From Prevotella sp. (GTDB lineage: Bacteria; Bacteroidota; Bacteroidia; Bacteroidales; Bacteroidaceae): a stretch of 51,710 nt of DNA. The position numbers and the translations under genes are program-made. The stretch's first letter is position 1; the number at the start of each line of letters is the position of its first letter. The DNA lies in assembly GCA_017428055.1 (NCBI GenBank), contig JAFRRN010000010.1, forward strand, positions 1-51,710, read 5' to 3'. The notes below the pieces were generated by a model. It was given only the letters and a program-made list of their open reading frames with translations, had not been told where the DNA came from and ran no database searches. This document shows, in pieces, positions 16,580 to 31,979 of this stretch.

Positions 16580-18142
16580 TTACGGACAAACCGCACGGAT
16601 GGTCATCCCAACGTATCTGTCTTCCCACGTTTTGTATGCCTCTCCCCAAAACGAATGGATTGAATAACAGATGGCATGTTGATTGGCGCCTGGACTCAAG
16701 TCCGTTGTCCAACAGTATATTTCGTCCACCACACGAGTTGACCCCGTATGAGGAAAATAGATGTAGTTTCCGTTAGGTCCCGTCGCTTTCATCACAGTAT
16801 GACCATTTAGCGATACGTTTTCGAAAGTGCAGTTATCCACCAGTTCCTGAAACTCCTCTGGAGTAGGCATGCGCCAGCTGCCTCCCATGAAGGCATGTGC
16901 CGCGTCATCCTCAAGATCAAGTCGTGTCTTTCCGTCCACCTCGCCCCATTCACTGTCGGTAACGTATTTGGTGAATGCCCCTTCGCCCGCTTCCTTGCAG
17001 AACTTATAATTCCCCCATTCGTAACGCCCTTGCTTGGGTGTCAACTCTCCCCAAGCGATGAAATAGCCGTTTTCAGTCTCCGTGCGGGCTCCTAAATTAG
17101 CCGATGCCCAGCGCACAGACAGCCCGAGGTCTACAGCCTTGATGTCGCTGGGCTTGGGCAGGGGTTGCAAGTCCACCATAGCCATACGCAGGAAATGGGA
17201 TGCATGGTCTATCGAATCCTGTAGTTCTAAATTCACCTCGTTGATGAGGCCTAAGTAGGCATGTTTCTTCTGTCCGTCGTTCTCTACCACGTAGGCTCTC
17301 ATGGCAATAGCACGCTGATGGTTCTTTTCAAGAGTCTGATAGCTTTCTGCGGTGTATTCCTCGGGATTGATGGTGCTCAGCAGCTTTTGAGCTTCCGCTA
17401 TGTTGCGGTCGAGGACGTTTAGTTTCAGATACACGGTGTCAGGCATTGCCCCCCGTTCTTTGACAGGACGTATAGGCAATCCATCGCTTCTGTTAACCTC
17501 CCAAAAGGTCGAAACATCTATCATGTCGATGGTGAAGACTTTCAACGCCCTGGTCTTCGCGCAATCCTTGCACCACATCTTGGTGTCGTTGTCCCAAGTA
17601 ATCAGCTCGTTACCCTGCATTCGCCCGGTAGACGGAAAGAATACCGTGTTGCCGTTAGGTCCTATCAGCAGGTAACCGAAAACGCCGTTCCTGATGGTGG
17701 GTCTCATCCTACAACAGTTGCGGTCGGTAGTATACGTGTCATAAAGGAGTTTCACCTCGTCTACCGTCGGCATTCGCCATCCTTCGCCTAAAACAACCGT
17801 TGCAGCATCGTCTTGGGGCTGAAGAAACCCATTCTCTTTATAATACAATGTGGAGGTTTGCAACTTGTATGTATCCCAAGAATAAACCTCCTTTGGCTCC
17901 GTTTCACCCCAAGCAAAGAAGTCGCCCGTGTCCTCGGGGCGCTTGGCACCTAAGTTCTTGGTGGCAATCATGAAATTGCCAATACCGAAGTCTACGTAGT
18001 CGTCATTCGTCTCGTACTCGGCATACTTGACAATAGGTTCTTTAGGTTCGGGCTGCGGTTCGGGAACAACATCCTCATCCTTCTGACATGACGAAAACAT
18101 GCACATCATGAGAGATAAAAACGCATAAAATACCTTTTTCAT
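16580..18142 (-). CDS. Lipoprotein with two Fib_succ_major-type paralogous domains
   Basis: 520 residues. A lipoprotein signal peptide ends in MFSSC (C19) and is followed by an acidic, proline-rich tether (DEDVVPEPQPEPKEP). Two related domains follow. The first, about 45-230, contains VDFGIGNFMIATKNLGA, WGETEPK and WRMPTVDEVKLL. The second, about 335-520, contains VDLGLSVRWASANLGA, WGELTPK and WRMPTPEEFQEL. Both match the repeat family first named for the Fibrobacter succinogenes major paralogous domain, found on surface proteins of fibre degraders. A helical segment (about 240-320) separates them. It is the last gene of the series that begins at susC, 15 bp after the BACON-type gene. Surface display and ligand binding are likely, but the ligand is unknown. 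Confidence 0.85.
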   Translation of the reverse strand: MKKVFYAFLSLMMCMFSSCQKDEDVVPEPQPEPKEPIVKYAEYETNDDYVDFGIGNFMIATKNLGAKRPEDTGDFFAWGETEPKEVYSWDTYKLQTSTLYYKENGFLQPQDDAATVVLGEGWRMPTVDEVKLLYDTYTTDRNCCRMRPTIRNGVFGYLLIGPNGNTVFFPSTGRMQGNELITWDNDTKMWCKDCAKTRALKVFTIDMIDVSTFWEVNRSDGLPIRPVKERGAMPDTVYLKLNVLDRNIAEAQKLLSTINPEEYTAESYQTLEKNHQRAIAMRAYVVENDGQKKHAYLGLINEVNLELQDSIDHASHFLRMAMVDLQPLPKPSDIKAVDLGLSVRWASANLGARTETENGYFIAWGELTPKQGRYEWGNYKFCKEAGEGAFTKYVTDSEWGEVDGKTRLDLEDDAAHAFMGGSWRMPTPEEFQELVDNCTFENVSLNGHTVMKATGPNGNYIYFPHTGSTRVVDEIYCWTTDLSPGANQHAICYSIHSFWGEAYKTWEDRYVGMTIRAVCP

Positions 18143-18157
18143 CTTATTCTTGTTTTA

Positions 18158-19816
18158 TTACATTTTCTTAGCTTTCATCGCGGCGGCATCAAATATCCAA
18201 ACACCGTCGTAAGATGTTACTACCAACTGGTCGGTGGCTGGCAGGAAATAGCAACTCTTCGCCTCGTTATTACCGATAAATCTGTGGTGTGTGCCAAAAA
18301 TGCCACGACCGTCAGTCATATCGAACAGTTCGAGGCAGCCGTCATACGAGCATATCTGATAGATGTAATCGCGCTCTGCCGTCAATTCGTCCCAAGCACA
18401 TTTTGAGCCTCGTGCCTCCATTTCAAGAACCTCGGAATACGACAAAGGCTCCAGACTGACCACGCACTCGCTGCCTGGGGCTGTACAAATGAAGGCTTTA
18501 TTGGCAAAGGGCGACATCTGTAAGTCCGTTAAGTTACCGCCAGCATAGTATTTGTCTGACTGGAAACTGGGGTGGACATTAACTTCAACAGGTTTCTGGT
18601 GCTGCCTGTTCACCCATTCCATAGGGCTATAGAGACGAGGATACATACTGGCATAAATGCGCGAGCCGTCGTAGTTGACATACAAGTGCTCAAACTTATG
18701 TTCAGTGTCATACCCGCTCAGCGTAATCTTGTCACCATTGGCACTATCGATATAACGCCATTCCATTCCCGTGCTACCATCCGATATCAGTCGCAGAATG
18801 CCAAAACCGTCCTTGGTGAACGCCACCTCGGAAGCATAGTTCGTAGGGTACTGCGGATGGGCATACGGCGAGGTTTCCTCTATCTGAATCGTCTTCACGA
18901 TCTCTCCCTTCGCAGGATCTACCACGCAGAAGTAATCCTGATTTCCCATCACATAGAGCAGCCCGTTATAAGGATTCATGCAGAGGTGAGTGGCAGCGTA
19001 TGGCATCTTCACACTCTTCATCTCCATCATGTCGTCAAGCGACAACTGCACCAGCCTTTTTTTGTTCGGCTCCCAGTCGTCAACGGCTATCCAGATGCTT
19101 TGCTTGTCGAGGGAGAGCGTAGTATTATTGATCCAACCATGCTCTTCGTCTAATAGAAACTTTTTCTGATAGAAAGGAACAGAGACTCCTATAGTACGCT
19201 CCTTCCAGTCACTCGCCGACTTGTAATCCACCCTCAACTTAATATCATTCCCAAGTTTAGAGACTTTCAACGGAAGTCGCCAGCGGAGTCCTTCCTCGTC
19301 TATCTTCTCTGCCTTGTCATCGATATAATAAAGCTCGCTGGCAGAGGAAACGAAAACCGCACCTACAGGCTTGTCGAAGAAAAACTCTACAGAGTCCCGT
19401 TCGCCGTTTATCACATTTCCAACAATGGCACGGGTGCCTACAAATTCTGCAGGCTTTTGACCTTGCTTGACTGTCAGCGTCAAGTCACTCCTTTGGGGAG
19501 TTGTAATAGTGACCGTTGCCTCACGGTCATAAGCAGCCGTGTTTTCCTGCCATTTTACGTTGATATTGGCACCTCCTATGCCCGAAGACGGCGATACAGA
19601 GAGCCTGTCGGCTGAAGAAGAAGTTGTCCACGATATGGCCATATCGGTATCAAGATAGATGTTCTCGAAACTGGCAGTATAATCAACCGTAATGCTATTC
19701 TTCTTCAGCTTGAATTCATGGGATGCAATGGTCATATTCTCAAAATGTTCATCGGAACACCCCGACAACACCAGCAATCCTACAAAAAGGAATAAAAAAT
19801 GACACTCTTTTTTCAT
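18158..19816 (-). CDS. BACON-type lipoprotein with C-terminal beta-propeller-like region
   Basis: 552 residues. Lipobox LLVLSGC (C20). Residues about 25-125 resemble a BACON/Ig-like domain (ISWTTSSSADRLSVSPSSGIGGANINVKW and TVTITTPQRSDLTLTVKQ). A second beta-sandwich (about 128-210) is followed by a region of about 330 residues with repeated patterns such as HLCMNPYNGLLYVMG, VDPAKGEIVKTIQI and HLYVNYDGSRIYASM. This suggests a YncE-like seven-bladed propeller. BACON domains in Bacteroidota are usually spacers or glycan-associated modules on surface proteins. The start follows the second CxxCH propeller gene by 8 bp, so the two are co-transcribed. No catalytic motif is visible. Confidence 0.8.
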   Translation of the reverse strand: MKKECHFLFLFVGLLVLSGCSDEHFENMTIASHEFKLKKNSITVDYTASFENIYLDTDMAISWTTSSSADRLSVSPSSGIGGANINVKWQENTAAYDREATVTITTPQRSDLTLTVKQGQKPAEFVGTRAIVGNVINGERDSVEFFFDKPVGAVFVSSASELYYIDDKAEKIDEEGLRWRLPLKVSKLGNDIKLRVDYKSASDWKERTIGVSVPFYQKKFLLDEEHGWINNTTLSLDKQSIWIAVDDWEPNKKRLVQLSLDDMMEMKSVKMPYAATHLCMNPYNGLLYVMGNQDYFCVVDPAKGEIVKTIQIEETSPYAHPQYPTNYASEVAFTKDGFGILRLISDGSTGMEWRYIDSANGDKITLSGYDTEHKFEHLYVNYDGSRIYASMYPRLYSPMEWVNRQHQKPVEVNVHPSFQSDKYYAGGNLTDLQMSPFANKAFICTAPGSECVVSLEPLSYSEVLEMEARGSKCAWDELTAERDYIYQICSYDGCLELFDMTDGRGIFGTHHRFIGNNEAKSCYFLPATDQLVVTSYDGVWIFDAAAMKAKKM

Positions 19817-19824
19817 TTTTCATG

Positions 19825-21303
19825 TTATTTGCGTACACCAAAGTTCTTGCGGGATTCATTGTTGATGATGCGACTGGCCTGATGGCCATCGAAGTGGGTT
19901 GGGCTGATAATGAAATCGGGTACATTAAAAGAAAGGAAACGGTCACGATAGAAACGGCGCGGATTGCGCTGCGGCAACATAAATGCCTTGCTGACAATGC
20001 CTTTGCCATTGACATGACAGAAATAGGGGCGCGTGAAGAGACCATCATCACGGCGGGAACTAAACACCATCCAGCGCGAGTTGGTACTCCAGTTGTGGAA
20101 CGATTCTGTGTCTTCTGAATTTGCCTCAACCATAGGGCGGCTCTCTCCTGTAGCGAGGTCAAGCAGGTAGAGGTCGGCCTCATGATGCCAGATGCTGAAC
20201 TGTCCGTAGTCGGAGAGTGTGTAGCACAGGAAACGTCCGTCGTAGGAGGGACGGGGGAAAGATACTGACTTATGTTGAGACACGGCATCGACAATGATGT
20301 CTATACGGTCGCCGAAGTTGCCCGTTGCGGGATCGAAATCGATACGGCAAAGGTTATAATGGATAGAATCAAGCTGGTGACTATCATCGGGGAGAGCGCG
20401 GGCGGCACAGAAATAGAGTGAACGACCATTGGCGGAAAAGACGGGATAGGTCTCATAGATGGAGTCTTGCTTGAGAAGTGGAGACAACAGCAGCTCATTT
20501 TTCTCAACGTCATAGACCTGAAGGTCGGAAGCGGTATCAAAAACCTCGATGCGGTTAGAGTCAGCACTATGGAATAACTGGCTCGTGGAGTTGGTGGAAT
20601 AAGCAATATAGCGACCCGAAGGATGCCAATAAGGATATACACACAGGCCAAGCGTCTGATTGGTCTTGGTGTTGTAAGCGGTGACAGGTTCATAATTCTG
20701 ACGCAGTAATGTGGCACCATGCGGACCACGGATATGGAGGCTCATATCGGCAGGGTTGCCACGGTTGAAGCTATGGCAGTTGACGCACCCCTCAAACTGG
20801 GTGTTCTCAATCAACGGACGCTCATCAAACGTGGAGAGATCGCGTTCGTAAATGCCCATCTTGCTCCATACCTCGTAGCCAGGTTCGATGAGGCGGTAGC
20901 AGAGACCGTAATCGATGCTGTCAGGACTGACGTAGATGGAGAAAGGGCGATAGGTGTGCCAACCATCTTCATATTTGGCAGAAACAGTTACACAGAGCGA
21001 ATCGCCACGATTCTGACCGAGGAGCGTATGCCAGTCGTCAATGTCGAAGTCTATCGATTCTTCGCCTTGGCAGTGCAAGTCGTGTCCGTGGCGGTCTGAA
21101 ATGACGGCATCAATGCGCAAAGCCGTCTCATCGGCCAAGCTAAAGTTGAGTGGTGCGATATTCACGGGTATGGTGACACCTATATAGTCGGGATAGATGT
21201 TAGGCTGAACAGTCTCCTGACGTGCGTCGCTAACAGTTTCGGAAGTGCAACCCATCAATCCCATCAACCCTATTAAAATATGTATATATAGAATCCTTTT
21301 CAT
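19825..21303 (-). CDS. PD40/TolB-like propeller lipoprotein with single CxxCH motif (copy 2)
   Basis: 492 residues. Lipobox GLMGC (C19). The N-terminal domain shares the block YPDYIGVTIPVNIAPLNF with the paralogue at 22658-24169. A single heme-c-type motif CVNCH (C173, C176, H177) follows a conserved Tyr/Leu/Ile/Glu segment (YRLIEPGYEVW). From about 215 to the end there are repeated PD40/WD40-like blades (YPYWHPSGRYIAYSTN, YPVFSANGRSLYFCA, FPRPSYDGRFLCYTL, NWSTNSRWMVFSSRR), as in TolB-like propellers. Its start overlaps the stop codon of the preceding membrane-protein gene (ATGA overlap at 21300-21303), so translation is probably coupled. The function is not established; the CxxCH could bind heme c or be structural. 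Confidence 0.85.
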   Translation of the reverse strand: MKRILYIHILIGLMGLMGCTSETVSDARQETVQPNIYPDYIGVTIPVNIAPLNFSLADETALRIDAVISDRHGHDLHCQGEESIDFDIDDWHTLLGQNRGDSLCVTVSAKYEDGWHTYRPFSIYVSPDSIDYGLCYRLIEPGYEVWSKMGIYERDLSTFDERPLIENTQFEGCVNCHSFNRGNPADMSLHIRGPHGATLLRQNYEPVTAYNTKTNQTLGLCVYPYWHPSGRYIAYSTNSTSQLFHSADSNRIEVFDTASDLQVYDVEKNELLLSPLLKQDSIYETYPVFSANGRSLYFCAARALPDDSHQLDSIHYNLCRIDFDPATGNFGDRIDIIVDAVSQHKSVSFPRPSYDGRFLCYTLSDYGQFSIWHHEADLYLLDLATGESRPMVEANSEDTESFHNWSTNSRWMVFSSRRDDGLFTRPYFCHVNGKGIVSKAFMLPQRNPRRFYRDRFLSFNVPDFIISPTHFDGHQASRIINNESRKNFGVRK

Positions 21304-22661
21304 TGCTTCGTGGAAATGTGAAGTAATAATTTGCCATAGTTTTCGCGGTCGCCCGTAAGCATATAGTAGGCCTTCAGATATTCGTATGCCATGCGATTAT
21401 CCGTGTTGCCATAATAGAGACTTTCGAGCATCTCACGGGTCACATGGTCGCTGAAGTAAAAGTTTTCTTTGTAGGCGAATTTACGTAGGCGTCCGTATTC
21501 GGGATGTTGGGCTATCGCCTTCTCATTCCCCAACAACGGCAGTGTCTCATTGGCCCATTCACGATAGAAAAGTGTTTTTTGCAATGCCGTGAGATATTTG
21601 CGAGCCACTTCGTAACTGCCGTTAATCAGGTTGGTCTCTGCCAGTCGTTTGTAGCATCGACCACTTTTCTGGAAGTCGAGTATGGCTTCCTGCGCCTCGA
21701 ACACCGTTCGCTGGGCAACGTTAATCATTCCCAACTGATAGAAAGCCTCGGCTGTAGGCAGAGGACTGGTGGCATCAGTCTTTACATCGGGCAGAAGACC
21801 TGCAATGCCGTTTTGATTATATTCGAACAAATGATTGGCAAGTAAACCGTGCATCGCCAAGGCAAGGTTCTGTACCGTCACTCCAATCTGGTTGTTAGGC
21901 TTTTCGGCGTTGATGGTCTCAAGTATACGGTTCCATTGCTGATGACGAGCCATGAAGTCATATTGCATCACTTTTTCTGCCTTGAAGTTGGCGTTCTTCC
22001 AAACGAGACATCCCATAATAACAGCAATAAGCGCAAAGGAGGCAAACGTCATTACAGGACGGCTCGAAGCTGTGATCCACTTATGGCAGGCACGGACCAT
22101 GAACGGGAGGATGATAGCAAGTAGCCATGCAGCATAGAGTAGCGCGGGGAACACTGTCGGATAACGATAGTAATGGCTACCGCCAAAGGCTATCCAATAG
22201 AGTATAGGAATGGCGATTATGAACGTGATACGTTGCAGCCATCCTTTGGGTATATGGAGACAGCCCCACATGGCGAGCTGCGTGAGCAGGACTGCCCAAA
22301 CGCCGCCCAGTAGCGCATTCTCGTCGAGCAGGAAGAGCCATAGCAAGAATGAAGGCACAAAGCTCAGGCCATAGAGCCATCCCCAGTTGGCTAAACGGAA
22401 CGTCAGCAGCTGCACCACCGAGAGCAGAAGCGCAATGATAAATGCCCCCACCCAAGCAAAAAGGAAGAACTGTGTGCAGAAGCGTCCCAGCAGGTCGGCT
22501 ACGCCTCCTGGCAGTTTGACAATGTCCCACACGTAAGTGCTATCGAAGAGAAAAAGTTGGTACTGCTCCTGATAATGCAGATGATGCGGATAGGCCATTC
22601 CGAAAAAGAGAAATACTGCCAATCCGAAGAGGAACGTGCATGTAATATGTAAATACTTCAT
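21300..22661 (-). CDS. Polytopic membrane protein with helical C-terminal domain (DUF6057-like, copy 2)
   Basis: 453 residues. About seven to nine transmembrane segments occupy residues 1-225. A soluble helical region (about 235-453) follows, with TPR-like phrases (AEAFYQLGMINVAQRTVFEAQEAILDF, GSYEVARKYLTALQKTLFYREWANE). A second, longer member of the same type lies at 24177-25952; both share the layout of membrane part then helical repeats and the phrase about tyrosine/phenylalanine after ALQK or ILHH. I associate it from memory with the Bacteroidota family DUF6057. The start overlaps the preceding lipoprotein gene by 4 bp (22658-22661), and the stop overlaps the next. The strict alternation with CxxCH propellers suggests that the two products work as a pair in the envelope. 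Confidence 0.75.
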   Translation of the reverse strand: MKYLHITCTFLFGLAVFLFFGMAYPHHLHYQEQYQLFLFDSTYVWDIVKLPGGVADLLGRFCTQFFLFAWVGAFIIALLLSVVQLLTFRLANWGWLYGLSFVPSFLLWLFLLDENALLGGVWAVLLTQLAMWGCLHIPKGWLQRITFIIAIPILYWIAFGGSHYYRYPTVFPALLYAAWLLAIILPFMVRACHKWITASSRPVMTFASFALIAVIMGCLVWKNANFKAEKVMQYDFMARHQQWNRILETINAEKPNNQIGVTVQNLALAMHGLLANHLFEYNQNGIAGLLPDVKTDATSPLPTAEAFYQLGMINVAQRTVFEAQEAILDFQKSGRCYKRLAETNLINGSYEVARKYLTALQKTLFYREWANETLPLLGNEKAIAQHPEYGRLRKFAYKENFYFSDHVTREMLESLYYGNTDNRMAYEYLKAYYMLTGDRENYGKLLLHISTKQ

Positions 22662-24169
22662 TTGAATACCTTACTGAATTCGTCGACGCTGATTCTGACA
22701 GGCTCAACCATAAACTCTGGACGGTTATAGCTCTTCAGGAGTTGGATATGTTGTTCGGGGTCTTCTTGTGGCAAGAGGAATGCCTTTTCTACTTTCCCGT
22801 TGTTGAAATAGGCGAAATAGACTCGGCTGTAATTGTCGTCATCACGACGGCTGGCAAGCATAATCCAATGACCATTGCTTGACCATGTAGGGTAGCTGTC
22901 GGAATAGCCGTCGCTGTTAAGGAGGGAGAGATCGAGAGCGGAAGAGGTTTCCGCTGTGAGGGCTGTTCCTGTGTACTGGTCCATCGGAATACAGACGATG
23001 TCGGCATCATGGTGTCTGCTATGGAAACAGCCATATTGCCCCAGGGCAAACAACAGATAGCCTCCATCGGGGCTGATGCGTGGCAGCGAGACGCTCTTAT
23101 CAGCCGATGCTGCATCATAGACGAGTTCCTCATCACCGAAGCCATGAGTTGCCAAATCGAAAGAACGGCGATAAAGGTTGTATTGTATTTTCGCGTAGGT
23201 AGACCGAATATCCTTATCGCTCATCTCTTCTGGGAGCGGCACTGACTTGCAGTAATAGAGGTATTTGCCATCAGGCGACCACGTAGGATAGACCTCTAAA
23301 AGAGTGGAATCATTCGAGACGATGCTCACCGAGTCGGTCTCCACATCGTAGAGAATCATGTCGCTCTCAAGGTCGTAAACTTCAATCTTGTTGGGATTGG
23401 CCGTATGGAATGCCTGTCGTGTCTTGTTGGTAGAGAAGGCTATCAGCTTGGCAGTAGGATGCCATGACGGATAGACACCTCCTGAGATGGTATAGTCACG
23501 CTTCATATTGACTTTCGAGATCTTACCATCATTTACAATAACAGTACCAGCATTAGAGAGTCGCACATGGAACAGCATGTTGTCGGTCTTGTAGTTCTGA
23601 TAGCTGTGGCAGTTGATGCATTGGCCAATTGTTCTGTCGTTCATGGTAATCTCGTTGTTGAAGATCTGGGTCTCTTCAAATGTAGTGAGGTTGCGCTGGG
23701 CAATCTCCATATAGGTCCATGCCACATACGATGGTTCGATAAGGCGATACGAAAGGTATTCGTCGATAGGCTCTTTAGCCACATGTATCTCAAACGGACT
23801 GAACGACAGCCATTCGTCTGCCTTCTGACCCCACACCTCGACTTTGATACTCTTGCCCTTTGAGGCATCGAGCATGTCGTGCCAATCCGATTCGGGTATC
23901 TGAACTTTCACACCATTGCCGTAGGTCTGCTGTTGACCATCGGGGGTGGTAAAACGTGCCACACACCCCTCGTATTCGTCTGCCGGGAGCATGAAGTTGA
24001 GCGGAGCAATATTGCAAGGCACAGTGACATTGCAATAATCAGGGAAGATGGTAGGCAGACACTTAGCCTCTTTGGTTGAAGAAGGCACATTAGGGTGATT
24101 TGTGCACGATGCCAACAACAGCACGGCTACAGCTAATAGCTGGAAATAAGGATGGATATATCTTTTCAT
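22658..24169 (-). CDS. PD40/TolB-like propeller lipoprotein with single CxxCH motif (copy 1)
   Basis: 503 residues from the ATG at 24169, which gives a proper lipoprotein signal (MKRYIHPYFQLL...LLASC, C22). A start at 24271 would run 95 bp into the upstream gene and was rejected. The N-terminal domain has FPDYCNVTVPCNIAPLNF, matching copy 2, then YRLIEPSYVAW and one CINCH motif (C184, C187, H188). PD40 blades follow (YPSWHPTAKLIAFSTN, YPTWSPDGKYLYYCK, LPRISPDGGYLLFAL, YPTWSSNGHWIMLASRR). An additional N-terminal cysteine pair (near C46 and C52) could form a disulfide. The gene begins 7 bp after the first membrane-protein gene and overlaps the second by 4 bp. The role is unknown; outer-membrane or periplasmic placement follows from the lipobox. 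Confidence 0.85.
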   Translation of the reverse strand: MKRYIHPYFQLLAVAVLLLASCTNHPNVPSSTKEAKCLPTIFPDYCNVTVPCNIAPLNFMLPADEYEGCVARFTTPDGQQQTYGNGVKVQIPESDWHDMLDASKGKSIKVEVWGQKADEWLSFSPFEIHVAKEPIDEYLSYRLIEPSYVAWTYMEIAQRNLTTFEETQIFNNEITMNDRTIGQCINCHSYQNYKTDNMLFHVRLSNAGTVIVNDGKISKVNMKRDYTISGGVYPSWHPTAKLIAFSTNKTRQAFHTANPNKIEVYDLESDMILYDVETDSVSIVSNDSTLLEVYPTWSPDGKYLYYCKSVPLPEEMSDKDIRSTYAKIQYNLYRRSFDLATHGFGDEELVYDAASADKSVSLPRISPDGGYLLFALGQYGCFHSRHHDADIVCIPMDQYTGTALTAETSSALDLSLLNSDGYSDSYPTWSSNGHWIMLASRRDDDNYSRVYFAYFNNGKVEKAFLLPQEDPEQHIQLLKSYNRPEFMVEPVRISVDEFSKVFK

Positions 24170-24176
24170 TGTTTTC

Positions 24177-25952
24177 TTATGATGCAACTTCATGTCCAAT
24201 TCCGCCACGTACATTAATAGGTTTTCTTCCAAAGAGGTTGTACCACCAGTAGGTGTCTCCATATTCTTCACGCATCAGTTCACCAACCTGGGCAATAGTC
24301 ATACCAGGCTTTGCCAGACTCTCCAATGTTGCCCAGAACTGTTTGTAGCGTTCATAGACTGACTGCTCGACAGGGAGCATGATACGCTTTTCCTCAGGTG
24401 ACTTATCCATATACATGATATAAGCCTCCATCGCATGCAAGGGGAACTGTTCGTCGAGGTGTAGTTTCACATAATTGCGCAGCGATGCCCAGAAACGACG
24501 GGTGTCGCAGCGTAGCATGGAATAGAACAATGCCTGTTCTGAAGCCACTTTGCAGTCGGATTCATACCACTGGCTTATTTCATTGACGATATAGCTGTCA
24601 CTGTTCTCAACGCCCGTAAGTTCATCGGGATAGCATTTTTGCAGTTGCTTGATCTTTTCTGTGACAGGAGCCGGTTGCCAGTTACCGTAGAATGGATGAT
24701 GATGCAAGATGGTGGTATAGCGTTCCACCAGTTTCTTATCTCCGACCGCCAAGGCACAGCGGGCAAGCATCTTTAAGTAGAAAGGTGAGAAACCAGCCTG
24801 TATGGCATTTTCAAAATCCAGGCGGATGGCTTCATTCATCATGCCGTAGTTGTAGTACACCAGCGGCGATGCGATGTCCAAAAGGGTGACGTGTAGCGTA
24901 TCGGGGTTATTGATGTTGACAGCATCGTTGCCCAATTTGAAAGAACGATCGAGCAGTCCTCCCTCATTCATCAGGGCTATATTCTTGAGAAACATCATCG
25001 TGCTGGTTGGCTTCTTGGTTTTTTCTGCCAAAGCCAGAACCTCCTTCCAATTGTCGTTGGAAGCATGTCGCACCATGCGCATTTCGTTGATATAGTTCCC
25101 ATCTTGGAACATAAGCGACAAGGTAAAGATTATACCAGCAATGGCACACAACACCGGCACAAACCTTTTAGCAAGATACTTGCCACATAGTGGAATGAGC
25201 ACAGAGACGACAACCAACACCCAGAACGGAATGGAGAGATGCGGGCAAACGTCGCTTGGCGTTTCGAAGCGGGGAAAGCCTGCCAACATGACATCATCGG
25301 CTTTCAAATTCGAATAGAACTGGCTATGCCAGATGCCGGCGGTAAAGAGAAGCAAGATGATGCCCACAAGCTCTCGCCAAGTGGGTTTTTCTGTAAGTGT
25401 TAGACATAAGACGAAAAGCAAAGCAAACCATCCCAGCACCGGATAGATGCAAACGGCTATCAGATACCAGACAAGATGCCATTTGCGAGGTGTGCAACGC
25501 GCTGCCCACAGAAGTAGCAACATGACGAGATAACCTACTGACTGCGAGAACCAATAGCCTCTGATGGTGGAGATATAAATCCAATAGCCCAAATCGACTA
25601 TCGATGTGAGCAGACAGGCAACTGGCAAGAGCATCAGCGCGGAAGCATCTCCCTGTAACCGGAAAGCCTTGACACCCACATAGAATATGAGCGTCCAGAT
25701 AACCATCATCACACTTGCACCTACCGACGGCCTATAACACAATTGCGTGAGCCAGGCTCCCACATACTGCATCAAGCCAAAGGGCTTCGATAGGAGCGTA
25801 TGGAAGAAGGGTGCTCCGTAGATGAACTCGGAACGGTCGTGTGCCGTATAGAGAACCTCTAAATTGATGTATAGTATATATACGACAAAAGCCATGAAAA
25901 CCAATAGGCTTACATTGAGGACAGCATCAGGTACTTTGCTTTTGTTTATCAT
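24177..25952 (-). CDS. Polytopic membrane protein with helical C-terminal domain (DUF6057-like, copy 1)
   Basis: 591 residues from the ATG at 25952 (MINKSKVPD). The in-frame start at 25985 lies inside a terminator hairpin and was rejected. About eight to nine transmembrane segments cover residues 10-285. A helical, TPR-like region fills the rest (NWKEVLALAEKTKKPTSTMMFLKN, YGMMNEAIRLDFENAIQAG, FYLKMLARCALAVGDKKLVERY). It is the first gene after the susC-susD-lipoprotein trio and shares its layout with the shorter protein at 21300-22661. No transporter or glycosyltransferase signature is visible. The 71-bp gap to the trio has no recognisable promoter, so expression probably depends on read-through of the hairpin at 25971-25996. 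Confidence 0.78.
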   Translation of the reverse strand: MINKSKVPDAVLNVSLLVFMAFVVYILYINLEVLYTAHDRSEFIYGAPFFHTLLSKPFGLMQYVGAWLTQLCYRPSVGASVMMVIWTLIFYVGVKAFRLQGDASALMLLPVACLLTSIVDLGYWIYISTIRGYWFSQSVGYLVMLLLLWAARCTPRKWHLVWYLIAVCIYPVLGWFALLFVLCLTLTEKPTWRELVGIILLLFTAGIWHSQFYSNLKADDVMLAGFPRFETPSDVCPHLSIPFWVLVVVSVLIPLCGKYLAKRFVPVLCAIAGIIFTLSLMFQDGNYINEMRMVRHASNDNWKEVLALAEKTKKPTSTMMFLKNIALMNEGGLLDRSFKLGNDAVNINNPDTLHVTLLDIASPLVYYNYGMMNEAIRLDFENAIQAGFSPFYLKMLARCALAVGDKKLVERYTTILHHHPFYGNWQPAPVTEKIKQLQKCYPDELTGVENSDSYIVNEISQWYESDCKVASEQALFYSMLRCDTRRFWASLRNYVKLHLDEQFPLHAMEAYIMYMDKSPEEKRIMLPVEQSVYERYKQFWATLESLAKPGMTIAQVGELMREEYGDTYWWYNLFGRKPINVRGGIGHEVAS

Positions 25953-26023: not shown

Positions 26024-26794
26024 TTATTCCTCATAGTAGACAGCATTGATAGTGCAGCTACCAGAAGTAATCATCAAGTCAAGGTCTTTACCATCACCGC
26101 CATTGCCACGTGCACAATCCTTAGCAATAGCCTCGGTGAGAGGAAGTTCCCACAAACCATTGGTGAACTGAACATCTTTGTTGTCATCATAACGAGCACT
26201 CCACCAACCGTTCATAATGCGACCGGCACAGTCTGGTGTAGCATCGGAGATTTCGAAGATAAGGGTCTTGAAGCCCCAATATTCATCGTCAGTAAGATAA
26301 CGGAAATACTTTCCTTCATAATCACTGAAACGCATGGCGGCGGCATCCCAAGCACCTGGCTGGAATGGCGGCTGCTTTACAGGATCCTCACCATAGATCC
26401 AGAATTTCTGGAGTTCGTCGGTAATCGTCTGACATGTCACAGGAAATTCTGCTGTAAGCTGTGTGCCATCGGCACAAAGAGCAGTCATGATGATTGTATA
26501 TGGAGTATCCTTATATTCACCTTTCTCATCCCTGCTAACCTTCATCTTCTTCCACGCATAATTACCAACAAATTCCTTGCCGCCGATATCCCATTTGGCG
26601 TTGACAGGTGCTGAGGTCTGACAGGAAATGACGTTACCATTCTTGCCATCTTCTGCCTTGTCAGTAGTGACAATGGTCTTTGCCAAGAGCTCGTCAATTG
26701 TGATGTGGCCGGCATTGCTGAAATCCTCCTGAACAGGATCACAAGCAACAAAAGCGCATACTGCGACAACAAGCAAAAATAATATCTTTTTCAT
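26024..26794 (-). CDS. Small surface lipoprotein of the SusC/SusD system (candidate surface glycan-binding protein)
   Basis: 256 residues from the ATG at 26794 (an ATG four codons upstream is also in frame). Lipobox AFVAC (C18) followed by acidic residues (DPVQEDF). Residues about 25-125 look like an immunoglobulin-like fold; the remainder (WIYGEDPVKQPPFQPGAWDAAAM..., DCAGRIMNGWWSARY) is rich in tryptophan and tyrosine, as in carbohydrate-binding platforms. Its place directly behind susD (17-bp gap) is where SusE/SusF-like or other surface glycan-binding proteins usually lie. I do not recognise the exact family. A terminator-like hairpin follows, so these three genes form the highly expressed part of the transcript. 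Confidence 0.75.
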   Translation of the reverse strand: MKKILFLLVVAVCAFVACDPVQEDFSNAGHITIDELLAKTIVTTDKAEDGKNGNVISCQTSAPVNAKWDIGGKEFVGNYAWKKMKVSRDEKGEYKDTPYTIIMTALCADGTQLTAEFPVTCQTITDELQKFWIYGEDPVKQPPFQPGAWDAAAMRFSDYEGKYFRYLTDDEYWGFKTLIFEISDATPDCAGRIMNGWWSARYDDNKDVQFTNGLWELPLTEAIAKDCARGNGGDGKDLDLMITSGSCTINAVYYEE

Positions 26795-26811: not shown

Positions 26812-28707
26812 TTAATATATTACCTTATATTGTGTTGTTTCATCAGAAGCATCCCAACCTGGGTTCTGCTCCATCTTACCATTCATCAGGGTAATCTGAC
26901 GCTGAGGCTTAGACAAGAAGCCATTAGTAGCAATGTAACGCTCTGTCCAAGAACAGGTCATGTGGGTCATCGTGCGCTTGTTAGCCTTGTCGCCAAGACA
27001 AACAATCTTCTTGCCAGCTTGAGCCTGGAGAGCCTTAGGAGCGTATGAGTCGGCTGTAGGCTTGTTACCAGTCCAACGACGCATATCGTTGAAGCGTAGG
27101 CCCTCAAAACAGAACTCCCAACGACGCTCGTCCTGAATGGCTTTCCAAGAGTAAGGTGTCTGCGGTACACCCGCACGAGCCTGGACTTGATTCATGTACT
27201 TGGCATCACCGGTAAGCTCGGTCATCATCAGCAGTACGTCAGCATAACGCATCAGATAGAAGTCCTCGAAGTGGTCACCCTGCATCTTGTTTTCAAGTGA
27301 ACTGCCGGAATAACCCTCACACATAGACCACCATGTATCGTTGTTTGCATTGCAAGCGTCAAGATTGACCTCGGCATACTTCTTCACCGAATAACCAGAC
27401 TCCTCGTTGTCATCTGCCTCGTAGGTATAGCCAGCCAACTCATTATCAAGGTCGATCATCGAAGCGAGCTTACGTTTGTCAGTATAACCCCCATTGGTTT
27501 CAGCAATAGTCCAATCGTCCCAGATGTTACACGATGGAGTACCCTGACCCCAACCCTGGTTGAACGGATAAGTCAAGTCACGGTTACCATTCTGGTTGGA
27601 AGCACCATTACGAAGACCCCAGAATACGGAGATGTAATTTGAATACATACGTGATTGAGAGTATGTACCACTAATGGCCCACTTGGAGGCATTTAAGAAC
27701 TGAACCTGGAAGATTTCCTCAGTGTTACCGTTACCCATACCGGGCTGGTCAAAGCAGTTCTCACGCTTCATATCCTTGATGAATGCATATTCATGACCTA
27801 CACCATCATGAGCCTCATCCCACAGAAGGCTGTTAGAATATTGCCAGAGTGAGCGGAAGTCCTCGCAGAGTTTGTAACCGCCATTGTCAACGATGTCCTT
27901 CAAGGCGGCAACGACATCAGCCTTTGCGAGTTTGGTTCCTGCGGGGCAACCCTCTTGTTCTACAAGTTCAATAGTAGCATCGCCCTTTGCCAGTTCACCA
28001 ACATTCTTATAGAAGCCAGCCCAGAACATCCATGCACGTGCAAGATACCCCTCGGCAGCGAACTTGTCAGCATGGCCAGAGCCATTGGCTCTCTCTGCCT
28101 TCATAAGACTCTTGGCAGAATAGAAGTCTGAAAGAATCTGTGGGTAGATAACATCCTCTGCACTCACCTGCTGCCACATATCATCCGTAATAACGGTAGA
28201 GGTAATCAGGGGCACATCGCCAAACAACTGGGTAATCAAGAGCGTATAGAGACCGCGCATGAAATAACCCTCACCGAGAAGCTGGTCGCGCTGGGTCTTT
28301 TGAGCATCTGTCCAGGCTACATTGTCAATCGTCTCAATTTGGTTGTTGGCACGTGAAACGCCACCATAGAGTACAATAAATATAGGTTCAAACTGATTAA
28401 CACTCATCTCTACCAGATGATGGAGAGACTTGGTCTTGTTGTCCTGCAAACCACCACTACCGTAGCAGTTGTCAGACATAAGCTCCCACCAATAGTAAGG
28501 ATTGTAGGTATCACAGTCGCCACCACCCATCGTATTCATGATACTATAGGTAGCTGCATTCAGGGCCTCCACGTCTCCAGGTTTCCCTGGGAATGTGCCT
28601 GCCGTCATCTGTGTAACACGCGGGTCCGTGTCCAGCATGTCGTTACAAGAAGTGAACAAGGTTGCTGCTGACAAAACAGCTAACGCTGATAAAATATATT
28701 TCTTCAT
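26812..28707 (-). CDS. SusD-family (RagB/SusD) outer-membrane glycan-binding lipoprotein
   Basis: 631 residues. Lipobox LFTSC (C21) then NDMLDTDP, the usual SusD opening. TPR-like helices and conserved phrases run throughout: QLLGEGYFMRGLYTLLITQLFGDVPLI, AEGYLARAWMFWAG, and near the C terminus AIQDERRWEFCFEGLRFNDMRRW, the family signature. It would form the lid over the SusC pore and hand oligosaccharides to it. It is 14 bp downstream of susC. At 631 residues it is slightly longer than the family's usual 500-600. The ligand is inferred to be a xylan oligosaccharide from context only; the residues lining the binding site cannot be judged by eye. Confidence 0.95.
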   Translation of the reverse strand: MKKYILSALAVLSAATLFTSCNDMLDTDPRVTQMTAGTFPGKPGDVEALNAATYSIMNTMGGGDCDTYNPYYWWELMSDNCYGSGGLQDNKTKSLHHLVEMSVNQFEPIFIVLYGGVSRANNQIETIDNVAWTDAQKTQRDQLLGEGYFMRGLYTLLITQLFGDVPLITSTVITDDMWQQVSAEDVIYPQILSDFYSAKSLMKAERANGSGHADKFAAEGYLARAWMFWAGFYKNVGELAKGDATIELVEQEGCPAGTKLAKADVVAALKDIVDNGGYKLCEDFRSLWQYSNSLLWDEAHDGVGHEYAFIKDMKRENCFDQPGMGNGNTEEIFQVQFLNASKWAISGTYSQSRMYSNYISVFWGLRNGASNQNGNRDLTYPFNQGWGQGTPSCNIWDDWTIAETNGGYTDKRKLASMIDLDNELAGYTYEADDNEESGYSVKKYAEVNLDACNANNDTWWSMCEGYSGSSLENKMQGDHFEDFYLMRYADVLLMMTELTGDAKYMNQVQARAGVPQTPYSWKAIQDERRWEFCFEGLRFNDMRRWTGNKPTADSYAPKALQAQAGKKIVCLGDKANKRTMTHMTCSWTERYIATNGFLSKPQRQITLMNGKMEQNPGWDASDETTQYKVIY

Positions 28708-28721
28708 AACTTATAGTCGAA

Positions 28722-31700
28722 TTAGAATTTAATACTTGCACCAATCAAATATGTACGAGATGGTGGGTAAAGACCCAGGTCAATACCAGAAGCCCAGCTT
28801 GAGCCACCAGCGGTATTACCAACCTCAGGATCGAGACCTGTGTAACCGGTGAATGTGCAGAGGTTTTGAGCCTGCACGTAGAGACGGAGCTGCTGTAATG
28901 GGCAGGACTTCCAGAGACGCTTGAAATCATAACCGAGTGTTACGGTCTTGATTTTGAAGTAATCAGCATTCTCCATGTAACGGGTAGATACATAGATGGT
29001 GTTCGGGTGTCCTGAATCAGATATACGTGGCTGGGTGTTTGAGGTTCCCTCGCCATACCAACGCTGTAGGATTGAGGTATCATAGTTCTGGTCGGGGTCA
29101 TCACCGAATGAACGGTAAGAACGCATAATCTGCATACCAAATGCGCCGGCACCGTTGATGGAGAAGTCAAGGCCCTTCCAAGAGAGACCGAGGTTGACAC
29201 CAAGGGTGACATCCGGGTTAGGATTACCAATCTCATGGCGGTCGCAAATATCATTACCGTTTGCATCTTTAGCTTCTGCGTATGTAATCACGCCATCACC
29301 ATTCCAGTCGTCCCAAATGCAGTCACCGGGCTGTGCGTTGTCAAGAACGGCCTTGCCTGCTTTACGTGCATCGTCAATCTGCTGCTGATTCTGCCAGATG
29401 CCGCTGTACGACATACCGTAGAAGTAACCGATGGGCTTGCCTTCCTCTGCACGGTAGATGTATTCTGTACCCTGTGAGAGTACACTGGCAGGACCATTGA
29501 TACAGTGATTGTCGTTAGCGATGCGGGTTACCTTGTTCTTGTTGGTGGCAAGGTTCACGCCTACGTTGTAGTTGAAGTCCTTACCAATCCTGTCGTTCCA
29601 GGAGAGAGCAAGTTCAACACCAGTGTTCTGGACGTCACCACCATTGACGGCAGCAGGGTTGGTTCCATAGATGGCAATCGGTTCACCAGCAATCAACCAG
29701 TCCTTTGTCGTCTTCTTGTACCAGTCGAAGTTGACACCCAGACGGCTGTTGAGGAAACGGGCATCGAAACCGAGGTCAATCTGCTCAGATGTCTCCCAAG
29801 TGAGGTCGGGATTCGGTACGATGTCAGCGTAAGCACCTGTGTGCGGTTTACCCGAAACAGAAGTGGTCATGTCAGAACCGAACTTATAACCGCTGTCGCC
29901 AGCGTCGCCAGACAGGGCGATGGTAGCCAGGTACTGGTACTTGTCGATAGCGCAGTTACCGTTTTGTCCCCAAGAAGCACGGAGTTTGAAGAAGTCCATC
30001 CAGCTCTTGGTGCTCTCCATAAACGCCTCGTTGCTGATGACCCAACCTGCGGACACTGATGGGAACACACCCCAGCGTTTACCATCGGTGAAGATACTCG
30101 AACCATCATAACGCAAAGTTGCGGTAGCCATATAGGTCTCATTCCAGTCCCATGTCACACGACCGAACCAAGAAGCGAGATACTCCTCGTCGTTGGGGCT
30201 GCCGTTCAGCGTGGCGTTGTTGAGGTCGGTGCTGAAATTGGAAAGCCAAGCAGAATTCCAGCCTTTCAGTGTTGCGAGCTGGTCGCCAAAATCAACCTTG
30301 TTAGATCCACCCACGTTAAAACTCCAAGCGGTGCTTTGGTAAGTCTGACCTACCATGGCACTGATCTTATGACCTGAAAGGATGGGAAGATCGTAAGTAA
30401 GGGTGTTCTCAACAGACCACGAAGAATTCAACCAAGCATTTTGGCTGACACTATATACAGTTGAGATAGAAGCACCTTCACCCGGTGCACGTGGCTCACC
30501 ATAGTTACGGTATGCGCCTGAACCCCAGCTGTAGTTGAACTGAGAGCGGAATCTCAAGCCCTTGATAGGCTGGATGGTAGCGAAGACAGTTGCATTGGCA
30601 TTGATGTTGCGGCTCTCTGCCATAGAGTTCCAACCACCCTTTGTAAGGTTCTCCCAGGGGTTGTAGAACAAAGATGCGGTCCAACCTTTACCATAAGTAA
30701 GATTACCTTCAGGGTCCTGATAATTATAGATATCACCATTGTCAGCATACTGCGGCAACAATGGACAAGTCTGGAGCAGGCTGTGGATATAACTCCAGTA
30801 CATACCATCCTCAGCGAGGTCGTGACTCTTGTTGTAGCCAATCGAGATGTTTTCACCAATGGTGATGGCATCGAAGTCCTTGGCCTTCAAGAGTACATGG
30901 TCGCTGTTGACACGGATGGTGTTGCGCTTGTAGAAAGAGGCCTGTTCTGCACCCATGATACCTTCGTTGCTGGTATAGGTGTAAGACATGGCGAACTTCG
31001 AACGGTCTGTGCCACCGGTCAAGGTAACAGAATGGTTCTGCTGTACGGCATTCTTGTTTTCGAATACGCCCCACCAGTCTGTGCCTTCCCAACCATTCGC
31101 AACTTTATTGAGAATGTCTGCCGGCACATTCTTAGCCCAGTTAAACGTAACACCTGATTTGTTGAAGTTGTACTCGTCATAGATGGTCATGTACTGCTGG
31201 GCATTGAGAAGCTGCGGGCGCTTGTAGGTGTTAGACCAACCCATAGCACCATTGTAGGTAATCTCAATCTTACCAGCCTTACCCTGCCTGGTAGTGACGA
31301 GGATAACGCCGTTGGCAGCACGTGCACCGTAGATGGCAGCCGATGCAGCATCCTTCAGCACGTCGATGCTCTCGATGTCGGCAGGGTTGATGTCGTCAAG
31401 GCTACCACCTGCCACTCCGTCAATGACATAGAGAGGAGAATAATTGTGGATAGTACCCTTACCACGAATGATAACCTTGTAGCCCTTACCCGGCTGTGAA
31501 GATGACTGGGTAATCTGTACACCAGGAGTAGAACTCTGCATAGCCTCGAGCGCATTGGTGGTGTTCAGTTTGGCGATGTCCTCACCCTTCACCTGAACGG
31601 TAGCACCTGTGACGAGCTTTTTCTTTTGAGTACCATAACCGATGACAACCACGTCGTTGAGCGTCGTGTTGTCCTCAGCTAACGTAATGATGATGTTGCT

Positions 31701-31979
31701 TCTGCCACCAACGTTTACTTGCTGGGTTAAATAACCCACGTAGGAGATGCTCAGCGTGGCAGTCGAAGGAGCCTTGACGCTGAAATTACCGTTCACATCG
31801 GTAACCGCACCTTCCTTGGTACCCAGCACAGCGACGTTAGCACCGATAACCGGCTCGCCTGCTTCGTCATTTACGACACCTGTCACAGTCTGAGCCTGGG
31901 CACAGATGGCAAAAAAGCAAAGAATGGAAAGGAAGAGTAACGACCTTTTCCATGTTCCGAACTTTTCTTGTTTTTGCAT
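28722..31979 (-). CDS. SusC-family (RagA) TonB-dependent outer-membrane transporter
   Basis: 1085 residues. Signal peptide about 1-30. A carboxypeptidase D regulatory-like domain (about 31-110, TVTGVVNDEAGEPVIGANV and GNFSVKAPSTATLSISYVGY) precedes the plug (about 115-240, with NDVVVIGYGTQKKKLVTGA, SPLYVIDGVAGG and IESIDVLKDAASAAIYGARAANGVILVTT, all SusC signatures). A 22-strand barrel follows, ending in RTYLIGASIKF with a terminal phenylalanine. No N-terminal signalling (STN) domain is present. It takes oligosaccharides into the periplasm with energy from TonB. It is the first gene of the transcript; a -7 box and an operator-like repeat lie upstream. It is the only SusC in the window. Confidence 0.97.
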   Translation of the reverse strand: MQKQEKFGTWKRSLLFLSILCFFAICAQAQTVTGVVNDEAGEPVIGANVAVLGTKEGAVTDVNGNFSVKAPSTATLSISYVGYLTQQVNVGGRSNIIITLAEDNTTLNDVVVIGYGTQKKKLVTGATVQVKGEDIAKLNTTNALEAMQSSTPGVQITQSSSQPGKGYKVIIRGKGTIHNYSPLYVIDGVAGGSLDDINPADIESIDVLKDAASAAIYGARAANGVILVTTRQGKAGKIEITYNGAMGWSNTYKRPQLLNAQQYMTIYDEYNFNKSGVTFNWAKNVPADILNKVANGWEGTDWWGVFENKNAVQQNHSVTLTGGTDRSKFAMSYTYTSNEGIMGAEQASFYKRNTIRVNSDHVLLKAKDFDAITIGENISIGYNKSHDLAEDGMYWSYIHSLLQTCPLLPQYADNGDIYNYQDPEGNLTYGKGWTASLFYNPWENLTKGGWNSMAESRNINANATVFATIQPIKGLRFRSQFNYSWGSGAYRNYGEPRAPGEGASISTVYSVSQNAWLNSSWSVENTLTYDLPILSGHKISAMVGQTYQSTAWSFNVGGSNKVDFGDQLATLKGWNSAWLSNFSTDLNNATLNGSPNDEEYLASWFGRVTWDWNETYMATATLRYDGSSIFTDGKRWGVFPSVSAGWVISNEAFMESTKSWMDFFKLRASWGQNGNCAIDKYQYLATIALSGDAGDSGYKFGSDMTTSVSGKPHTGAYADIVPNPDLTWETSEQIDLGFDARFLNSRLGVNFDWYKKTTKDWLIAGEPIAIYGTNPAAVNGGDVQNTGVELALSWNDRIGKDFNYNVGVNLATNKNKVTRIANDNHCINGPASVLSQGTEYIYRAEEGKPIGYFYGMSYSGIWQNQQQIDDARKAGKAVLDNAQPGDCIWDDWNGDGVITYAEAKDANGNDICDRHEIGNPNPDVTLGVNLGLSWKGLDFSINGAGAFGMQIMRSYRSFGDDPDQNYDTSILQRWYGEGTSNTQPRISDSGHPNTIYVSTRYMENADYFKIKTVTLGYDFKRLWKSCPLQQLRLYVQAQNLCTFTGYTGLDPEVGNTAGGSSWASGIDLGLYPPSRTYLIGASIKF

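Follow-up and report, generated by a model that had tools for sequence, protein, structure and literature searches.

The minus-strand run of genes examined here, from Prevotella sp., raises the question of what four genes behind a susC/susD pair, which encode in alternation two polytopic membrane proteins (MEM_A and MEM_B) and two propeller lipoproteins (LIP_A and LIP_B), are there to do. The window, by which we mean the whole stretch of 51,710 nt that was analysed, is one contig of a 4.2 Mb genome, and all coordinates of the run are positions in it. An earlier reading of the sequence (the original prediction) gave the order as MEM, LIP, MEM, LIP, spaced by a 7-bp gap and two 4-bp overlaps, and the gene coordinates bear out both the order and the spacing exactly, each overlap being an ATGA. 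The features claimed to be common to LIP_A and LIP_B (35.6% identity) were also found, namely the PDY..VT.P.NIAPLNF block, one CxNCH motif each and matches to PD40 repeats. The claimed kinship of the two membrane proteins held at the profile level only; both match the DUF6057 family (PF19529), but their sequences are very divergent, with no BLAST match over half their length and 18% identity in a multiple alignment. As set out below, we regard the two pairs as paralogues, each a copy of the same near-obligate envelope module of two proteins.

The distribution of the two families was scored in two samples of 198 genomes each. In the sample drawn from the phylum, DUF6057 was above the family cut-off in three genomes, the host included, and a full-length LIP was present in the same three (14 DUF6057 matches below the cut-off, with E values of 8e-5 to 1e-3, and many short PD40-only matches in the LIP search were excluded). 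In the sample drawn from the order, DUF6057 was found in 21 genomes and a LIP at E<1e-80 in the same 21, counting one (G331) in which the LIP is cut by a contig end; at E<1e-20 the LIP search gave 23 genomes, the same 21 together with G262 and G344, which carry a distant relative that we call LIP2. Partial matches of the LIP2 type (G160, G196, G262, G344, G254 and G331) were handled separately, and the profile search of the order sample found no DUF6057 in 14 named control genomes. Outside the host genome, 43 of 48 DUF6057 genes had a same-strand LIP no more than 500 bp away. The other five comprised one at a contig end, one fragment and three (in G246, G223 and G295) whose genomes each also hold one unpaired LIP elsewhere; by a hand tally the numbers of MEM and LIP genes were equal in 21/23 genomes. 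The host genome itself contains nine DUF6057 genes (from 13 profile matches, those to the same gene being counted once) and eight LIP genes, all eight of which lie directly 3′ of a DUF6057 gene, giving eight pairs in six loci. The remaining DUF6057 gene, which is divergent and has no LIP (L014:9799-11004, contig C68 of the host genome G000), adjoins a gene whose product has alpha-amylase and CBM48 domains.

The 500-bp count paired each LIP with the nearest MEM and gave seven cases with the LIP upstream, of which two (G298:C40:44613 and G355:C49:24371) were in fact the LIP of a neighbouring pair. When one LIP was assigned to each MEM, 51 pairs from 22 genomes and 47 loci were obtained, with the LIP downstream in 45 and upstream in six and a median gap of 4 bp; this set omits orphans, contig ends (L236-L239, L241, L244 and L245) and LIP2 loci, and leaves without a partner two MEMs, in G298 and in G246, and a LIP of G298. 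Across the 51 pairs the pairwise distances of MEM and LIP were correlated (r = 0.535), and re-pairing within genomes lowered the mean r to 0.254 (SD 0.057), none of 5000 shuffles reaching the observed value. Leaving out the two most copy-rich genomes gave r = 0.490 against 0.348 for the shuffled pairs, with 3/2000 shuffles as high. Such within-genome shuffles control for species ancestry, although joint duplication or transfer of linked genes can by itself raise the correlation. When the MEM was divided into its two parts, co-variation with the LIP was higher for the tetratricopeptide repeat (TPR)-like part (z 4.9) than for the membrane part (z 3.3), which would be expected if the TPR part docks the LIP, linked inheritance again contributing. 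Because the two proteins are nearly always encoded side by side and vary together, it is very likely that MEM and LIP work as one machine. The idea of a duplicated two-component envelope module is thus strongly supported, and the two families are seldom found apart, the opposite of the distribution that would have refuted the original prediction.

The arrangement seen in the window was also followed in rumen relatives, by a scan of species genomes with LIP_B in which the best 80 of 190 loci were kept; the nearest named matches were mostly metagenome-assembled genomes of rumen Prevotella, and it is from the named matches that the contigs are taken to belong to Bacteroidales. These loci held 153 LIP genes, with a MEM directly upstream in 145 of the 148 that had a neighbour in view; since they were chosen by similarity to LIP_B, these counts speak for conserved synteny and not for independent pairing. 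In 66/80 loci there were two pairs separated by no more than one gene, SusD lay upstream in 60 of the 64 loci that span at least 16 kb, and the exact order SusD, small lipoprotein (with or without a FISUMP-like gene), then two MEM-LIP pairs recurred in 52/80. The arrangement goes beyond chance, given this exact order and the rarity of a CxxCH motif among other proteins of at least 150 residues in the host and wider loci (8/667). In two genomes of different families a small DUF4369 protein is encoded between or just before MEM-LIP pairs (L009:9526-10185 and L250:5866-6456).

In a Pfam scan of the LIPs only the PD40 repeats were above the cut-off. A structural search with LIP_B returned TolB in its 12 best rows, aligned from the N-terminal domain on, a search of the Protein Data Bank with the LIP profile gave weak matches, to an uncharacterised TolB-like protein and to TolB chains, and the modelled LIP appears to have the TolB fold. 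A true TolB was nevertheless ruled out, as the LIPs score 27.6 and 28.6 bits against the TolB equivalog, for which the cut-off is 343.15. While other parts of the protein differ widely, 50/51 paired LIPs keep both Cys and the Asn of CxNCH, and all 51 keep the His; a CxxCH was found in 149 of the 153 LIPs of the rumen loci, and only two LIPs of the wider set lack it, one unpaired (G295) and one paired (G355). Among candidate axial ligands, the His of the motif (His177) is joined by His403, which is present in 47/51 LIPs and in 8/8 LIP2 proteins and is replaced by Pro in LIP_A. The CxNCH of LIP_B lies on a strand (DSSP, residues 173-180) with which, in our reading, the first propeller blade begins; the LIP structure alignment (A4) comprised 78 of 84 kept sequences plus the two window LIPs. 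LIP2 proteins combine CxNCH and PD40 repeats with a hydrophobic segment at the N-terminus; all four residues of the motif are kept in 8/8, clear TPRs occur in the same chain in three of four examples (L200:670-2931, L201:1294-3021, L125:757-2916 and L126:766-2973), and LIP2 occurs also in some genomes that lack DUF6057.

A lipobox pattern was present in 8/8 LIPs of the host genome (with one Cys misplaced by the pattern), 144/148 of the rumen loci and 35/44 of the wider set. Surface-exposed lipoproteins of Bacteroidota are marked by an acidic export signal after the lipid-bearing Cys. This signal was absent from the LIPs of the host, the 80 rumen loci and the wide set, in which acidic residues at positions +2 to +6 averaged 0.25, 0.90 and 0.43, respectively, the same count for SusD being 2.15 and 1.72. 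The scarcity of acidic residues suggests that the LIP sits on the periplasmic face, and on the same ground a role as a surface glycan-binding protein was ruled out.

Cytochrome-c maturation genes are inherited with the module. ResB, which represents maturation system II, was found in 134/198 genomes of the order sample, in 21/21 genomes with the module and in 113/177 others (Fisher 2.8e-4); NrfA was found in 10 of the 21, and among genomes in which NrfA was not found ResB was present in 11/11 with the module and 55/98 without (p 0.003), although Fisher tests overstate independence here because the sampled genomes share ancestry. Maturation was scored by ResB. The host genome has NrfA with an adjoining ResB match, and its second maturation locus holds a DHOR di-heme protein followed by a 744-codon ResB-type gene (L209:6209-10305, on G000:C86). 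Where such neighbours are named CcsBA or NrfH, the names are our interpretation, based on matches to ResB, on gene order and on the number of CxxCH motifs.

A second co-inherited gene, of about 390 codons, is weakly like the chorismatases FkbO and Hyg5 (TIGR04444 below the cut-off in 8/8, the N-terminal domain PF21168 above it in 4/8). It adjoins MEM or LIP in G039, G078, G222, G295 and G331, is two genes from MEM in G223 and adjoins LIP2 in G344, G254 and G160. A profile of nine such proteins found it in 32/198 genomes of the order sample, two of them (G215 and G250) by short matches only: all 21 with the module, both of those with LIP2 only and 9/175 of the rest (21/21 against 11/177 others; 17/17 against 9/175 once the six genomes that supplied the profile were left out). 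At 10 of 20 further stretches a CxxCH protein or a ResB-type gene was encoded no more than two genes away, against a background of 6/38 genes of the same loci (p 0.012), a biased count, as the 20 were picked from 37 matches, several for a known nearby ResB on the contig, and the frame behind one case (L279) looks spurious. Neighbours elsewhere include DHOR di-heme proteins, and the host copy (G000:C68:52481-53524) has no CxxCH or ResB-type neighbour. We take the chorismatase-like gene as a marker of unusual c-type hemoproteins. From the conservation of CxNCH, the co-inheritance of ResB and the presence of this gene, LIP is quite probably a c-type hemoprotein with heme bound covalently at CxNCH.

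Further sites of the chorismatase-like (FkbO/Hyg5, Rid-fold) gene are L246, L247, L250, L263, L268-L275 and L283. At one of them a protein of 1331 residues with NPCBM, HZS_alpha and FGE-sulfatase domains and two CxxCH motifs (L271:6499-10494) adjoins a ResB-type gene and is two genes from the chorismatase-like gene; L273 has a gene of similar size with two CxxCH. Hydrazine synthase, where zinc is bound by the CxxCH His of heme alphaI and the iron has a Tyr as its ligand (in the available part of PMC12607021), offers a likeness as a non-canonical c-type hemoprotein, and an HZS_alpha protein occurs in a gene run with chorismatase-like and ResB-type genes, but the LIP itself has no HZS_alpha match in the Pfam scan.

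Hydropathy plots gave seven peaks in each window MEM and eight in two relatives from the host genome. In an AlphaFold2 model of MEM_A (predicted local distance difference test 86.7, predicted template modelling score 0.85) repeat helices come after a helical membrane part, and the six best aligned rows of a structural search with it were enzymes of the glycosyltransferase C (GT-C) type, with moderate and partly tied scores. Foldseek with the MEM model gave no match at E<0.001, the matches being mostly tetratricopeptide or pentatricopeptide repeats, and a search of the Protein Data Bank with the MEM profile gave none up to E 1. One or other of two adjacent first-loop positions is acidic in 90/92 sequences of alignment A3 (90 of 126 kept sequences plus the two window MEMs) and in 45/54 of the wide set, against a background of 7.7%. 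On the strength of the model, a GT-C fold for the membrane part seems reasonably likely. No His was conserved above 80% at well-occupied positions in an alignment of 55 MEM sequences, and the MEM as a quinol-cytochrome oxidoreductase was rejected on that ground.

The outline predicted for the MEM, a GT-C-like module joined to TPRs, matches that of the O-mannosyltransferases TMTC1-4 and TMEM260, and it is for this reason that they serve as our working model for the MEM. According to the available part of PMC11292533, these enzymes have a GT-C module (of seven transmembrane segments in the TMTC enzymes) with acids in the first loop, and lumenal TPRs that are thought to recruit beta-rich substrates. 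The MEM resembles them in its predicted GT-C-like bundle, its candidate first-loop acid in most members and its C-terminal TPR part, and differs in that the acid is not universal and that a partner with a heme motif is encoded alongside. No sequence similarity was found between MEM and two TMEM260-like proteins of the host; hhalign gave a probability of 2% with a two-sequence profile, a class of result no better than that of the CcsBA, MATE and Amt controls (0.1-0.5%). The best overall explanation, plausible if still short of probable, is that each MEM forms a complex with its cognate LIP, a heme-bearing propeller, and acts on the envelope in the manner of a GT-C enzyme. LIP would most likely have its anchor in the outer membrane and face the periplasm, bearing a single covalent heme at CxNCH, and MEM would be an inner-membrane protein whose TPR part, which should be periplasmic, probably docks its own LIP. 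Like an enzyme of the TMTC/TMEM260 kind, MEM would use the TPRs to recruit a beta-rich client, either LIP or something borne by LIP, and its membrane part might move a lipid-linked sugar onto an envelope acceptor; we propose this glycosyl transfer only tentatively. That the heme renders the transfer step dependent on redox state or on a ligand is more doubtful. Some copies of the pair would be deployed in SusCD operons. A more speculative proposal is a new class of envelope machine in Bacteroidota, a TPR-guided GT-C transferase of the inner membrane in which every copy has its own heme-c TolB-like lipoprotein, serving both as dock and as a switch that responds to redox state or to a ligand. 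Up to eight such cognate pairs would have arisen in a single genome, with recruitment into SusCD operons, and the chorismatase-like protein would be a new factor connected with unusual c-type hemoproteins.

Some observations are in keeping with other readings. The first-loop acid is lacking in 9/54 MEMs. On the side of LIP, the motif lies on a beta strand, and in our reading of the alignment its His seems to be placed like that of the WHP in the next blade. The missing acids speak for a redox- or gas-sensing module without glycosyl transfer. LIP would then be a sensor with heme c, or else carry electrons, and MEM would be only a TPR anchor across the envelope; the pair would report redox state, or provide electron transfer, for envelope proteins. 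The almost invariant motif and the co-inherited ResB and chorismatase-like genes also suit this reading, but a simple anchor leaves the GT-C-like arrangement unexplained and the lack of a conserved His makes a heme-b quinol oxidase unlikely, so that we consider this reading somewhat improbable. The two points about the motif would instead be accounted for if CxNCH held no heme and were a redox-active or structural disulfide or a metal site, its His belonging to a blade motif comparable with the WHPSG of the next blade. This is unlikely in view of the exact CxxCH spacing in 50/51 LIPs and in all eight distant relatives, and of the ResB and chorismatase-like genes in all 21 genomes with the module.

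A non-catalytic, Tol-like scaffold across the envelope, in which the outer-membrane LIP and the inner-membrane TPR protein would assemble or position complexes such as SusCD, draws on the TolB matches of LIP_B, the TPR-like part of MEM and the enrichment near SusCD. LIP differs from the TolB of Tol-Pal, however, in its 12-14% identity, its lipid anchor, its score far under the family cut-off and its DUF6057 partner; a heme-c motif is not known as a feature of TolB, and most copies are not near SusCD, all of which leaves the scaffold quite unlikely. The same distribution bears on the notion that the pairs are accessory genes of one SusCD substrate, such as xylan, for which the xylanase gene upstream in the window and the recurrence of SusD, small lipoprotein and two pairs in rumen Prevotella could be cited. 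SusC or SusD lay within three genes at 15 of 40 wider loci, against 4/154 background genes (p 1e-8), and at two of the six host loci; as 25 of the former and four of the latter have neither, a single substrate is highly improbable, and a xylan-specific accessory role was rejected. Thus, of the functions originally suggested, service to the SusCD transporter is upheld as an enrichment and not as a requirement, most copies lying elsewhere. A redox role gains support, since the heme-c motif hardly varies and cytochrome-c maturation is inherited together with the module; energy coupling gained none here. Compared with SusCD operons and their surface glycan-binding lipoproteins, some copies are inside and most outside, and LIPs are probably not surface exposed.

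The remaining genes of the run are listed with the module in Table 1. The small lipoprotein between SusD and the first pair (LPX) keeps its position in the 52 rumen loci with the exact order, and a FISUMP-like relative directly follows it in 15/80. The BACON-domain lipoprotein is probably on the same transcript as LIP_B. LIP_A has a further in-frame ATG upstream, and a start there would overlap MEM_A. Upstream of the SusC gene is a gene for a glycoside hydrolase family 10 (GH10) xylanase with a match to carbohydrate-binding module family 6 (CBM6; window 32652-34547).

Table 1. Features of the minus-strand run, in window positions, with the basis of each assignment.
Feature	Position	Strand	Basis
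SusC/RagA TonB-dependent transporter, first gene of the apparent operon	28722..31979	-	TIGR04056, 871 bits
SusD-like lipoprotein	26812..28707	-	PF07980 and PF14322
LPX, small lipoprotein between SusD and the first pair	26024..26794	-	no Pfam match
MEM_A, DUF6057 membrane protein	24177..25952	-	PF19529, 233 bits (gathering cut-off 29.8); AlphaFold2 model; structural matches
Predicted parts of MEM_A: GT-C-like membrane part, residues ~1-288; C-terminal TPR-like part, ~295-575			model
Asp39 of MEM_A, first loop after transmembrane segment 1, candidate GT-C-type catalytic acid	25836..25838	-	alignment
LIP_A, TolB-like lipoprotein with CxNCH	22658..24169	-	PD40, lipobox Cys, alignments A1 and A4
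CINCH of LIP_A, heme-c-type motif	23606..23620	-	sequence
MEM_B, DUF6057 membrane protein, shorter membrane part	21300..22661	-	PF19529, 430 bits, two stretches (gathering cut-off 29.8)
LIP_B, TolB-fold lipoprotein with CxNCH	19825..21303	-	
CVNCH of LIP_B, residues 173-177, heme-c-type motif	20773..20787	-	sequence; DSSP strand 173-180
BACON-domain lipoprotein, 8 bp 3′ of LIP_B	18158..19816	-	PF13004
Lcl_C/FISUMP-like lipoprotein, last gene of the run	16580..18142	-	PF07603; TIGR02145 below cut-off

In Pfam, DUF6057 is a family without an assigned function, and its LIP partner falls outside named families except for the PD40 repeats. Open-licence papers gave no mention of 'DUF6057', and no description of the MEM-LIP pair was found in the available portions of such papers. 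The family now gains an almost certain partner, together with biochemical predictions that can be tested. In fermenting gut and rumen bacteria the usual c-type cytochrome is NrfHA; if LIP does carry heme c, these bacteria would also have a c-type hemoprotein of TolB fold. General O-glycosylation exists in the phylum (in the available part of PMC10897501), and if MEM is a GT-C enzyme it would provide a module-specific route of glycosyl transfer beside it. That a single genome has eight pairs suggests machines that are insulated and client-specific; through the copies in SusCD operons, redox or envelope modification would be linked with nutrient uptake.

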